From the NCBI GenBank assembly GCA_023657465.1, contig JAGTJX010000003.1, positions 738,830-802,829 on the forward strand: 64,000 bases of DNA, read 5' to 3'. Both the position numbers and the translations under genes were made by a program. This DNA comes from Lysobacteraceae bacterium (GTDB lineage: Bacteria; Bdellovibrionota; UBA1018; JAGTJX01). Positions 28,454-31,840 of this stretch are shown in pieces. Under the pieces are notes generated by a model. It was not told the origin of the DNA. It worked only from the letters and a program-made list of their open reading frames with translations, and made no database searches. Position 1 is the stretch's first letter. Every line of letters begins with the position of its first letter.

Positions 28454-29215
28454 TCAGTGCCAAGTCTTAGGATCATTACGTGAGTCACCTTGCTTGAATA
28501 GCTGATTGAGGAAGTCCTTCTTAGGTGTTTTGGTATTGGTCACAACGAGCTTCAGATGAGGTGCCTTACCCTTACTTTTCGCCATGCGTTTAAGCCCAGT
28601 GATCCTCTGCTTCAAGAACACTGAAAGAAGAAGAAACAAAAATCCTCCGAGCATTCCTCCCAGATGCGCGATTCCGCTCAGTCCTCCACCGGGAGTAAAC
28701 ACCGTCGTAAAAAACTCCACTCCTGCCAAAACCCACACAAACACTTTGGCCTTCATTGGGAAGAGCATCATGAAAAGTAGCGTGCGCTCGCTAAACAAAA
28801 TCCCGTAAGCAACGAGAAGTCCATAGACTCCCCCCGAAGCTCCTATGAGTGGTATGGCAAGCGAGTCCGGTTGCCAGAAGATCAACTGCAAAATGATGTA
28901 AGAGAACCCCGCAAAAATAATCGACGCCAAATAGTAGCGAACAAACTTGGCTGTCCCCCACACCATCTCAAGCTCCGATCCAATCACGACTAGCATGAGA
29001 GCATTGAGCACCAAGTGAGTGACATCTCCATGAAGAAGACTGTAGGTGAAGATCTGCCAAACATGAAAATGTATCAGAAATCCAGATGGCCTCAGTCCCA
29101 ATACAGAGAGAACATGTCCACCCAGCCACCGATCCATGACTTGTTGAAAAACAAACAATCCTAAACTTAAAAACAAAATGGTCTTTACTGCGGGAGTGAG
29201 CCTGTAGTTCATCAT
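28454..29215 (-). CDS. Rhomboid intramembrane serine protease
   Basis: 253 aa with six predicted membrane helices. The catalytic serine is S128 in GASGGVYG, and the histidine is H184 in AHLGGMLGG. The TM2 region YSLLHGDVTHLVLNALML carries the supporting His and Asn residues. A basic cytoplasmic C-terminal tail of about 50 residues follows. It cleaves membrane-embedded substrates, which cannot be named. Its start overlaps the epimerase stop by 4 bases. It is the intact counterpart of the broken rhomboid at 4.6-5.1 kb. Confidence 0.93.
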   Translation of the reverse strand: MMNYRLTPAVKTILFLSLGLFVFQQVMDRWLGGHVLSVLGLRPSGFLIHFHVWQIFTYSLLHGDVTHLVLNALMLVVIGSELEMVWGTAKFVRYYLASIIFAGFSYIILQLIFWQPDSLAIPLIGASGGVYGLLVAYGILFSERTLLFMMLFPMKAKVFVWVLAGVEFFTTVFTPGGGLSGIAHLGGMLGGFLFLLLSVFLKQRITGLKRMAKSKGKAPHLKLVVTNTKTPKKDFLNQLFKQGDSRNDPKTWH

Positions 29216-29628
29216 TTGGAGGATGCCTCCATAATCTCAATCAGTAAACCGCCCGTCGTACTGGGATGAATAAAATTGATTCGCATCTGATGTGCGCCAA
29301 TCTTAGGCGATGGATAGATGAGCTTGTAACCAGCCTGAAGGAGTTCTTTTGAGAGGGAGTCTAGTTTACCTGTTTCCACTCTGAACGAGAGGTGGTGAAC
29401 CCCTGGACCACGTTTTGCGATGAATTTTGCGACGGTGCCTTCGGGATCTTCAACTTGAAGGAGCTCAATATTTGTTGTTGCGGTAGCGGGTTTCAAGAAG
29501 TGAACTTGCACGCCTTGATCGGCGACATGCTCTGTGCCGGAAGCTTTGAGTCCTAGAATTTCAAAAAGTTTTTTAACCTGAGGTAAATCATTAACTGCAA
29601 TTCCGATGTGATCGAGTGTGATTGTCAT
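29212..29628 (-). CDS. mce: Methylmalonyl-CoA epimerase (VOC family)
   Basis: 138 aa, the family's usual length. Paired beta-alpha-beta modules begin ITLDHIGIAVNDL (metal ligand His) and include GPGVHHLSFRV and GGLLIEIME (metal ligand Glu). It interconverts R- and S-methylmalonyl-CoA in propionate, odd-chain fatty acid and branched amino acid breakdown. No Shine-Dalgarno sequence precedes the ATG; instead a GC-rich hairpin and T-rich run end directly at it. It is coupled to the rhomboid gene. Confidence 0.87.
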   Translation of the reverse strand: MTITLDHIGIAVNDLPQVKKLFEILGLKASGTEHVADQGVQVHFLKPATATTNIELLQVEDPEGTVAKFIAKRGPGVHHLSFRVETGKLDSLSKELLQAGYKLIYPSPKIGAHQMRINFIHPSTTGGLLIEIMEASSK

Positions 29629-29715
29629 AAAAAGAAAGGGCCATTACCACTTGTTGCTGTACCTGATTTCGCCTCCCCAGACAAAATCATCAAGTGATAA
29701 CGGCCCTCAGTCAAT
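29629..29715 (-). ncRNA. Structured RNA or leader upstream of mce
   Basis: On the minus strand an outer 16-bp stem (arms 29706-29691 and 29653-29638) encloses an inner 10-bp stem (29688-29679 / 29674-29665, loop GGGG). Each stem contains two G-T pairs that are G-U in minus-strand RNA but would be C-A mismatches in plus-strand RNA, which fixes the strand. An 11-base bulge (AGGTACAGCAA) lies on the 3' side. The outer stem is followed at once by TTTCTTTTT, then the mce ATG, so it looks like an intrinsic terminator. A TATAGT box at 29728-29723 could start the transcript near 29715. I recognise no known family. Confidence 0.6.
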
Positions 29716-29897
29716 GTCAAAGACTATAGAGTACCCACCAGTAATCCCCCTAGCCTAGACACCTACATATCGACTGTGTCTGAGAAAACTTGAGTTATTT
29801 TTGCAACACTGTGCGAGCAAGGAACTACGAAGCTGTTTCACGCGAAGCGCCCTATCAAGCGCCAAATGGATAGAATAACCTTAGAGTCTACTAACGA

Positions 29898-29956: not shown

Positions 29957-31840
29957 TTACTGAAAGTACAATTCGCGGTTAAAAAAACCACCACCTTGAA
30001 ACATTCCACCACCTTGAAACATTCCACCACCTTGAAACATTCGATAGTAGTTCTGTTGTGCTTCATAGAGCTGTTGCTGTGCATAAAAACTATTTTGCTG
30101 AGTCTGCATTTGTTCTTGCATGCGAACTTGTTGTTGCATCATCGCTTGTTGTTGCCACTGCATAAATTGCGGATTCATACCGCCCATACCCATGTTGCCG
30201 CCCCAGCCCATGCCTGGCATTCCGCCCATACCCATGTTGCCGCCCCAGCCCATGCCTGGCATTCCGCCCATACCGCCTAAACCTAAGTTAATTCCAATTC
30301 CAGCACCTGGGAATCCACCCATTCCGTACATTCCGCCCATGTTGCCGCCCCAGCCCATACCCATGTTGCCGCCCCAGCCCATGCCTGGGAATCCACCCAT
30401 TCCGTACATTCCGCCCATGTTGCCGCCCCAGCCCATGCCTGGGAATCCACCCATTCCGTACATTCCGCCTCCCCAGCCTCCACCACCGTATGGGTTCATA
30501 CCCATCATGCCCAACATTCCATTCATTCCAAAGCCACCGCAACTGCTGCCCATGAGAGGACTGCCAGGTGCCATTTGTGGACCATAGTTTGTGGTCTCTG
30601 GTTTGAGAGGGTCTTTCGCAGCCAAACCTAACAAGTTTTGGTTGCCAATATAGCCCGTGTTGTAAGCCTTGACATAATCATTGTACATGTTGGCGTTCGA
30701 CTGATTAGCAGCATTATGCGAATCCAAATAAGAGCTAAAACTGTTCGAATAACTATTCACAGCATTATTACAAACACTTGCATTGATCAGCGCTCCAGTC
30801 ACAGGAACTCCAAAACCAATCAAGCCTTGCACAATCAGCTCTCCAGTTGTTGGAGCACGGTGAACGTTACCCCACTGATCCTCATAAAAACCACTTCCGC
30901 CTGAGGACTGACGGCGTTTTTCTCTCAGAGTTTTTTTACAGTCTTTACAATTGGTGTCTAACAATGTGAACTCAGCATCCCAAGTAGTAATTAAACTATC
31001 GAGTTTATTAATATTTTTATCAAGTAGTGCAATGGCTCTCTCTGTTTCAAAAATATTATTGTCATAAATATTTGCTTGGCAGAGCTTGATTGCATTCAAA
31101 CACTTATCGGTGACTTTTCCAGCCATACCGGTGAAACCTTGATCTACAAACTTACTAAATAGCCACACGCAAGCATTGTCATCGCCCCAAACTTGTCCGC
31201 TATAAACATAGTTTCCGTTTGCATCTTTCTTTTTATCTTTGAGAGCTTTGTCGTTCGTTCCTTTAGTACCTTCAGGAAGGCCGTCGTTGTCTGCATCAGA
31301 ACCAACTGTTCCATCATCACCAGGAAGATTGGTCTTGTCACCTTTGAGTGGATTGTCAGTTTCGTATCCACCAGTGTCACCTTGATTATTTTGGTTAGCA
31401 CCTAGATGTAGACCGAATGCAGACCATTCAGATTTGTTATAGTGAAACCCAGCTTCACTGAGCATTTCAAAATCTTTACCACTACACGCTTCGAGACATT
31501 CCTTATTACAGAGCCCGTAAGCCTTTTTCTGTTTCTTCAATTCTTTTAATTTATCTTTGAGTTCTTTTTGAGCTCTGCGCTTGTCTTTTCTAGACTGCTC
31601 ACCTTGTTTAATTTTAGTTTTGTATTCCTGATATTTTTCAGCTTTTTCGTCTTCACTGAGTTTGCTCGTGTCGAGGCCTTCTTCAGAAGTAGAGGCTAAG
31701 AGGTCTTCAATATTTCCATCAGGGTCTTCTTGCGCATACACAGTTGCCATGTTCGCTGGCAGAGCAATTATCCCCACAAAGAGCCAGGTTGCTCCCTTTT
31801 TGAATAAATCTTTTTTCCAATGACGAACCGTTTTCATCAC
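29957..31840 (-). CDS. Secreted Gly/Met/Trp-rich repeat protein, 627 aa
   Basis: Signal peptide with a cut near VYAQE. A charged coiled-coil-like part (residues about 50-110) is followed by a D-rich segment (SDADNDGLPEGTKG) resembling a thrombospondin type 3 calcium-binding loop, then a region with several cysteine pairs (e.g. NCKDCKK). The C-terminal third holds imperfect 14- and 18-residue repeats of GMGGMPGMGWGGNM and MYGMGGFPGMGWGGNMGG type. A Gln/Met-rich stretch and three MFQGGG units follow. No family is recognised. A surface, matrix or metal-binding role is possible but is inference. A terminator follows. Confidence 0.75.
   Translation of the reverse strand: MMKTVRHWKKDLFKKGATWLFVGIIALPANMATVYAQEDPDGNIEDLLASTSEEGLDTSKLSEDEKAEKYQEYKTKIKQGEQSRKDKRRAQKELKDKLKELKKQKKAYGLCNKECLEACSGKDFEMLSEAGFHYNKSEWSAFGLHLGANQNNQGDTGGYETDNPLKGDKTNLPGDDGTVGSDADNDGLPEGTKGTNDKALKDKKKDANGNYVYSGQVWGDDNACVWLFSKFVDQGFTGMAGKVTDKCLNAIKLCQANIYDNNIFETERAIALLDKNINKLDSLITTWDAEFTLLDTNCKDCKKTLREKRRQSSGGSGFYEDQWGNVHRAPTTGELIVQGLIGFGVPVTGALINASVCNNAVNSYSNSFSSYLDSHNAANQSNANMYNDYVKAYNTGYIGNQNLLGLAAKDPLKPETTNYGPQMAPGSPLMGSSCGGFGMNGMLGMMGMNPYGGGGWGGGMYGMGGFPGMGWGGNMGGMYGMGGFPGMGWGGNMGMGWGGNMGGMYGMGGFPGAGIGINLGLGGMGGMPGMGWGGNMGMGGMPGMGWGGNMGMGGMNPQFMQWQQQAMMQQQVRMQEQMQTQQNSFYAQQQLYEAQQNYYRMFQGGGMFQGGGMFQGGGFFNRELYFQ
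30175..30476 (-). repeat. Coding tandem repeats of 42 and 54 bp
   Basis: Near-identical units sharing CATGTTGCCGCCCCAGCCCA on the plus strand are repeated about five times, in a 42-bp form (14 residues) and a 54-bp form (18 residues). All keep the reading frame of the 627-aa gene. The DNA copies are nearly identical, implying recent duplication or homogenisation and possible length variation between strains. Confidence 0.85.

Follow-up and report, generated by a model that had tools for sequence, protein, structure and literature searches.

A small RNA gene with a flagellar-type promoter, predicted to pair with the coding sequence of one flagellin in relatives of Bdellovibrio

The minus strand directly upstream of mce (methylmalonyl-CoA epimerase) in the window, by which we mean the whole 64,000-nucleotide stretch of DNA analysed, encodes a small RNA (sRNA) of about 132 nt, which is very probably a standalone, sigma28-dependent sRNA of a new family that controls one flagellin by pairing with the flagellin B mRNA. 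The features on which this assignment rests are listed here in window coordinates, with the exception of the last, which lies on contig C4 of the same genome.

29768-29793, minus strand, sigma28 (FliA)-type promoter, a pattern match in its own genome
29793-29788, minus strand, promoter -35 element TCAAGT, FliA-type
29773-29768, minus strand, promoter -10 element TCGATA, FliA-type
29629-29760, minus strand, sRNA gene of about 132 nt, aligned with 38 distinct homologues, its start placed from the -10 element and its end from the U run
29760-29626, minus strand, match to the sRNA covariance model (100.6 bits)
29716-29760, minus strand, hairpin P1 with an inner stem; 94% of cells in the outer helix are paired
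29740-29735, minus strand, P1 loop UGGUGG, with GGUGGG conserved
29701-29714, minus strand, linker and 5' arm of P2, UUGACUGAGGGCCG, complementary to the flagellin B coding sequence CGGTCCTCAGTCAA
29636-29708, minus strand, hairpin P2, from the fold; outer stem 29708-29691 with 29653-29636
29690/29689-29679 with 29674-29664, minus strand, inner stem of P2, from the fold
29654-29663, minus strand, 3' bulge of P2, GGUACAGCAA; GGUACAGC is invariant across the sRNA family
29629-29637, minus strand, UUUCUUUUU, the U run with which the P2 terminator ends; a U run follows P2 in most homologues
29212-29628, minus strand, mce, a neighbour outside the RNA (TIGR03081, 113.4 bits, just below the cut-off of 114.95)
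C4:570694-570707, nucleotides 776-789 of the 831-nt flagellin B gene, site CGGTCCTCAGTCAA, pairing with UUGACUGAGGGCCG (29714-29701)

The sequence-only reading had described, between 29638 and 29706, an outer stem of 16 bp (29706-29691 with 29653-29638 on the minus strand) and an inner stem of 10 bp (29689-29680 with 29673-29664). Both are present, and the minus-strand fold of the 100-nt stretch has an energy of -42.5 kcal/mol (z = -6.32, equalled by none of 200 shuffles), compared with -23.8 kcal/mol (z = -2.95) for the plus strand. On the minus strand the four non-Watson-Crick pairs, two in each stem, are indeed G-U without exception; the strand deduced from them was the right one, although the G-U argument by itself is weak (four of four on one strand has a probability of 1/8), and it is the covariation, the conserved promoter and the U tail that settle both the strand and the reality of the RNA. 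The coordinates so described are limited to the 3' half of the conserved element; upstream of them lie another covarying hairpin (29760-29716) and a promoter. The proposal of a small RNA in its own right, complete with a terminator, stands, whereas the length of about 80 nt given for it does not, the RNA being about 132 nt long with its start near 29760.

The first hairpin, P1 (GUCUAGGC.../...GCUUAGGC, with loop UUUGGUGGG), is joined by the linker CUUGACU to P2, the apical loop of which is purine-rich and 96% of the cells of whose outer helix are paired. P2 and UUUCUUUUU together have the form of an intrinsic terminator, a stable hairpin with a U run behind it, and P2 is thus predicted to double as the terminator of the sRNA; its stem is much longer than usual, and it is absent from the list produced by a simple terminator scan. 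A small ORF within the RNA was considered and rejected: start-like columns are present, but the frames stop early in most sequences.

The covariance model finds exactly one copy in each of 44 of the 58 genomes of the class. When only genomes with at least 90% completeness and no more than 5% contamination are counted, the sRNA is present in 31 of 35, and the four exceptions belong to two families, f3 and f7, from every member of which it is absent. Of the 369 genomes searched in the phylum no others gave a match, with nine candidates scored per genome, a depth at which weak relatives could escape. Public records matching the exact pattern are mostly metagenome-assembled genomes of Bdellovibrionota. 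Two such records, L050 and L052, are titled Legionella sp. and Nitrosovibrio sp.; L052 gives a full model match (91 bits), and the title is probably that of a mislabelled metagenome bin, while L050 matches the exact pattern yet not the model.

Conservation of the stems in relatives had been put forward as one of the tests on which a real RNA should stand or fall, and the stems proved to be conserved with compensatory changes. Both-side changes occur in 22 of 34 pairs among the 38 distinct sequences (6/8 pairs in the P1 outer helix, 8/14 in that of P2), and the number of double-changed cells is 115, against 41.1 ± 6.2 in shuffles, with both hairpins covarying. Pairing, at 87% in register, falls to 37-51% when the partner columns are slid by 1-3 positions. 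Fitting of the alignment to the covariance model flatters these counts, but plain MAFFT alignments give the same pattern.

A FliA-type promoter, the mark of a sigma28-dependent flagellar sRNA, stands directly upstream at all 39 sRNA loci with fixed spacing, in the form T(A/C/T)AAG, 15-16 nt, CGA(T/A); 34 were found by the strict pattern and five by eye with one deviation each. The FliA consensus of the attack-phase promoters of B. bacteriovorus is the same motif (PMC3627812). The strict motif has four matches in the organism's own genome, two of them before the sRNA and before a flagellin. The motif alone is not specific, because a reversed-pattern control also matches twice in that genome, and it is the conservation that carries the argument. 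A FliA-type sigma factor was found in 58/58 genomes of the class. The flagellar sigma factor appears to turn on the sRNA, alongside the late flagellar genes.

The other form that had been envisaged, an attenuator or riboswitch-like leader of mce, has the local arrangement in its favour. The U run touches the mce ATG, TTTCTTTTT ending at 29629 and the start codon lying at 29628, and the observation that no ribosome-binding site intervenes was borne out, a Shine-Dalgarno sequence being absent; moreover, the RNA adjoins mce in most genomes, and leaders of mce orthologues from other families of the order hold the same RNA. A cis-acting leader would, however, be fixed upstream of its gene and co-oriented with it. 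The RNA is instead kept in three genomes in which mce was not found (G001, G005 and G045), points away from mce in G039, is on a different contig in G041 and is separated from mce by another gene in G048, and even the spacing between the two varies. We therefore regard a leader function as very improbable. In the families without the sRNA, the model found no hidden copy at the mce loci. In G048, the stretch between the sRNA and mce (L108, 4223-5011, plus strand) contains an ORF of 262 aa and a repeated hairpin, and is perhaps an inserted mobile element. On the other side of the sRNA in the window, at 29957-31840 on the minus strand, lies a gene for a Gly/Met/Gln-rich repeat protein of 627 aa with a signal-peptide-like start; it has no match in Pfam or NCBIfam, and similar proteins are encoded upstream of the sRNA in several relatives.

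Strong structure and a single copy per genome are also what a housekeeping RNA would show, and a divergent form of a known RNA (6S, c-di-GMP-I/merRNA or another Rfam family) or a repeat element was weighed on those grounds. The statement that the element matches no nameable family agrees with our Rfam search, which at gathering and at permissive thresholds returned nothing relevant up to E = 10, apart from one chance match; SRP RNA, tmRNA and RNase P RNA are excluded solely by the Rfam scan of the window. There is no match here to 6S RNA (RF00013), the true 6S gene being at C4:714760-714937, or to the c-di-GMP-I riboswitch/merRNA (RF01051), a separate copy of which lies at C2:68644-68742 on the minus strand. 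None of the eight attack-phase sRNAs of strain HD100 matches model R1, even without filters. The sRNA is single-copy in its own 2.83-Mb genome, the outcome that had been set against a known repeat, and viral contigs gave no exact-pattern match. We give a repeat or mobile element, like a divergent known RNA, negligible probability. A CsrA sponge of the CsrB/RsmZ type, which would carry several conserved GGA motifs in its loops, was also rejected: the GGA at the apex is the one that is widespread, and several members have GGU instead. Anti-Shine-Dalgarno mimicry, in which GAGGAGG of the apical loop would face the CCUCC end of 16S rRNA, is compatible with the sequence and was dropped. No earlier description of the sRNA was found in the literature searched, subscription journals being mostly beyond the reach of that search. 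Among our incidental observations, c-di-GMP-I (merRNA-like) RNAs, for which the 2013 merRNA paper saw no conservation beyond the Bdellovibrio lineage (Karunker et al., PMC3627812), occur well outside Bdellovibrio, in the present genome (locus L127) and in most genomes of the order. About 4 kb separate one flagellin gene of the present genome (C4:718830-719660) from that for 6S RNA; 6S RNA and flagellins share a contig in several genomes, and flagellin matches number from three to nine per genome.

The predicted target is one of these flagellins, flagellin B, the gene for which is directly upstream of that for flagellin A and in this genome encodes both Flagellin_N and Flagellin_C domains. When the flagellin loci are compared for duplexes with the linker region, one and the same flagellin B site gives the best in every one of the 30 genomes tested. 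The codons of this site are nearly frozen in 40 flagellin B genes (GTC 40/40, CTC 40/40, AGT 37/40 and CAA 40/40), and are the only ones among 203 scored columns with a relative synonymous entropy below 0.15, the mean for the gene being 0.79; the alanine codon just beyond the pairing is free again. Of 43 flagellin B entries, among which a few genomes appear twice, 36 contain the exact 13-nt core; it occurs in none of 30 flagellin A genes of the same genomes and in none of nine flagellins from genomes without the RNA.

The sRNA and its site pair at 476 of 480 positions in the 32 genomes with both partners, and a change in one partner is mostly matched by the other: AGC in the flagellin of G037 faces CUUGGCUG in its sRNA, and in G001, G009 and G028, which represent three genera, the flagellin reads TCA GTC and the sRNA GGACUG. 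The remaining differences are mostly G-U, with one A-C mismatch within the site in G044. None of 5000 random reassignments of partners reaches the observed Watson-Crick count, in a control that preserves column composition but not phylogeny, so that shared ancestry stays in. All of the compensatory cases are within one family (f2); G028 and G044 belong to the same genus and differ at that position, which makes that change, at least, a recent one. Such joint change of RNA and message from genome to genome makes the sRNA look built for pairing with the message of one flagellin, and base-pairing with a flagellar mRNA is thereby indicated from sequence alone. The case for this target draws on the flagellin loci, codon conservation and covariation, and other targets may exist. 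Three genomes of 75-82% completeness without a match to the RNA (G042, G043 and G050) have both the leader motif described below and the site, and from this we would predict that the sRNA is merely missing from the assemblies.

That leader motif is a second link between the two RNAs. The flagellin B leader carries (G/C)GUACAGC, the same sequence as the sRNA bulge, in a small hairpin whose stem varies with pairing kept; the element is thus in a bulge in the sRNA and in a hairpin loop in the leader. In 80 flagellin upstream regions examined later, which included many paralogues, it occurs in two, both of flagellin B, and a third pattern match is far upstream. It is rare in the background, and absent from the flagellin leaders examined in f3 and f7, the families without the RNA. 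The common element may bind a common factor, which might replace Hfq. Hfq itself, which an Hfq-dependent sRNA would need in the organism, was detected by TIGR02383 in 0/58 genomes (a model positive in 5 of 14 controls), a search that a very divergent Hfq could escape.

The leader of flagellin A has features of its own. In the present genome (C4:569805 region; C4:570651-571051, L141) it contains TGCTGTACCTGA, which is perfectly complementary over 12 nt to the bulge region of the sRNA and was not found in the flagellin leaders of other genomes. The first target considered was this one, with GCTGTACC of the leader pairing with the GGUACAGC bulge; seen in one of 56 flagellin leaders, it was treated as coincidence. 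Other flagellin A leaders (L142-L170) hold conserved and probably structured sequences, CAGACGTT...AACTCGG in family f2 and GAGGGCGTC...GGGCACGC...CGGGCACAGCGT...GACGAAAGGGC in family f5.

Taken as a regulator of flagellin B, the sRNA would be made from the FliA promoter together with the late flagellar genes, and its single-stranded linker (UUGACU) would dock first on the site of 14-15 nt, located some 45-60 nt ahead of the point where the flagellin B coding sequence ends. Cofolding gives an 8-bp helix at the linker, with P2 unopened, worth about 8 kcal/mol, and from there pairing could spread into the 5' arm of P2 by strand displacement, opening the lower stem. The outcome would be post-transcriptional control of one flagellin paralogue. 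We infer expression of the RNA and its pairing in the cell, and pairing may lower rather than raise flagellin B output; against this, repression through a translated coding site so close to the 3' end would be unusual.

The shared GUACAGC element invites another explanation, in which the sRNA acts mainly as a decoy that mimics the flagellin B leader and titrates an RNA-binding protein or ligand, pairing being the step of release or capture. The sRNA does resemble the leader in its sigma28 promoter, its 5' hairpin and the element, which is invariant in the sRNA as GGUACAGC, and the rarity of the element, its absence from leaders of genomes without the RNA and the maintained pairing of the varying leader stem all fit such a role. 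A decoy alone leaves the frozen codons unexplained, however, as it does the compensatory changes that link the sRNA to the coding sequence, the element sits in different structural contexts in the two RNAs and the binding factor is putative, and we consider it a possible but doubtful account. About as tentative is a combination of the two contacts into an Hfq-free system, in which pairing at the coding end of flagellin B is coupled to GUACAGC, shared with the leader, as the site of a dedicated factor; docking of the linker would then open the lower part of P2 and shift the factor between sRNA and leader. If this were true, the cell would gauge flagellin B mRNA by means of an RNA switch.

The direction of control might also be reversed, with the flagellin B mRNA as the regulator and its 3' coding site acting as a sponge for, or opening, an sRNA aimed at other mRNAs. 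Flagellin mRNAs are usually abundant, and the site is far from the start of translation, both of which would suit this arrangement. Several targets are known for the sigma28-dependent sRNAs of E. coli (PMC10578931). The flagellin loci and the few hundred kb searched nevertheless yielded no other conserved target, and we think a reversed direction unlikely. Control of flagellin B by the sRNA is the reading that we prefer.

FlbT is an RNA-binding regulator of a flagellin leader. Another is CsrA-FliW (PMC4894983), and a factor of either kind acting on the flagellin leader would explain the shared GUACAGC element, which is, however, unlike the GGA-type motif of CsrA. Among sRNAs, the closest parallels are MotR and FliX of E. 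coli, which are sigma28-dependent and pair inside coding sequences, with fliC among their partners (Melamed et al. 2023, PMC10578931). The present sRNA resembles them in sigma28 control, here judged by promoter sequence, and in coding-sequence pairing. MotR and FliX are, however, UTR-derived and bind Hfq, whereas the present sRNA is an intergenic gene in organisms where no Hfq was found, bears no sequence relation to them and, unlike them, has a target site at which synonymous codons have stayed nearly frozen throughout an order. In Campylobacter jejuni, CjNC1 and CjNC4 are FliA-dependent and repressed target fusions without needing Hfq (PMC4626219), and CJnc170/FlmR is a further FliA-dependent sRNA (PMC11187230). 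CjNC1 and CjNC4 differ from the present sRNA in being about 44 nt long and in having the 5' UTRs of sigma54-dependent genes as predicted targets, and no sequence relation to the Campylobacter sRNAs was apparent. Bdellovibrio bacteriovorus HD100, of the same phylum, has merRNA and APsRNA1-7, attack-phase RNAs of which some arise from FliA-type promoters (PMC3627812); they are distinct from the present sRNA by the model comparison above, and merRNA holds a c-di-GMP-I riboswitch, which the present sRNA lacks.

The sRNA is, by this analysis, a previously undescribed family of a known functional class for which a target can be named, and it was named from the genomes themselves, with compensatory changes between two different RNAs. 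The group consists of relatives of the predatory Bdellovibrio, in which the targets of sRNAs are little known, and it offers a predicted case of sRNA-mRNA pairing within a coding sequence where Hfq was not found. This makes a testable proposal for why these bacteria retain several flagellins: one of the flagellins appears to be under the control of an RNA of its own, and the synonymous codons nearly frozen at its site would be the visible sign of that control.
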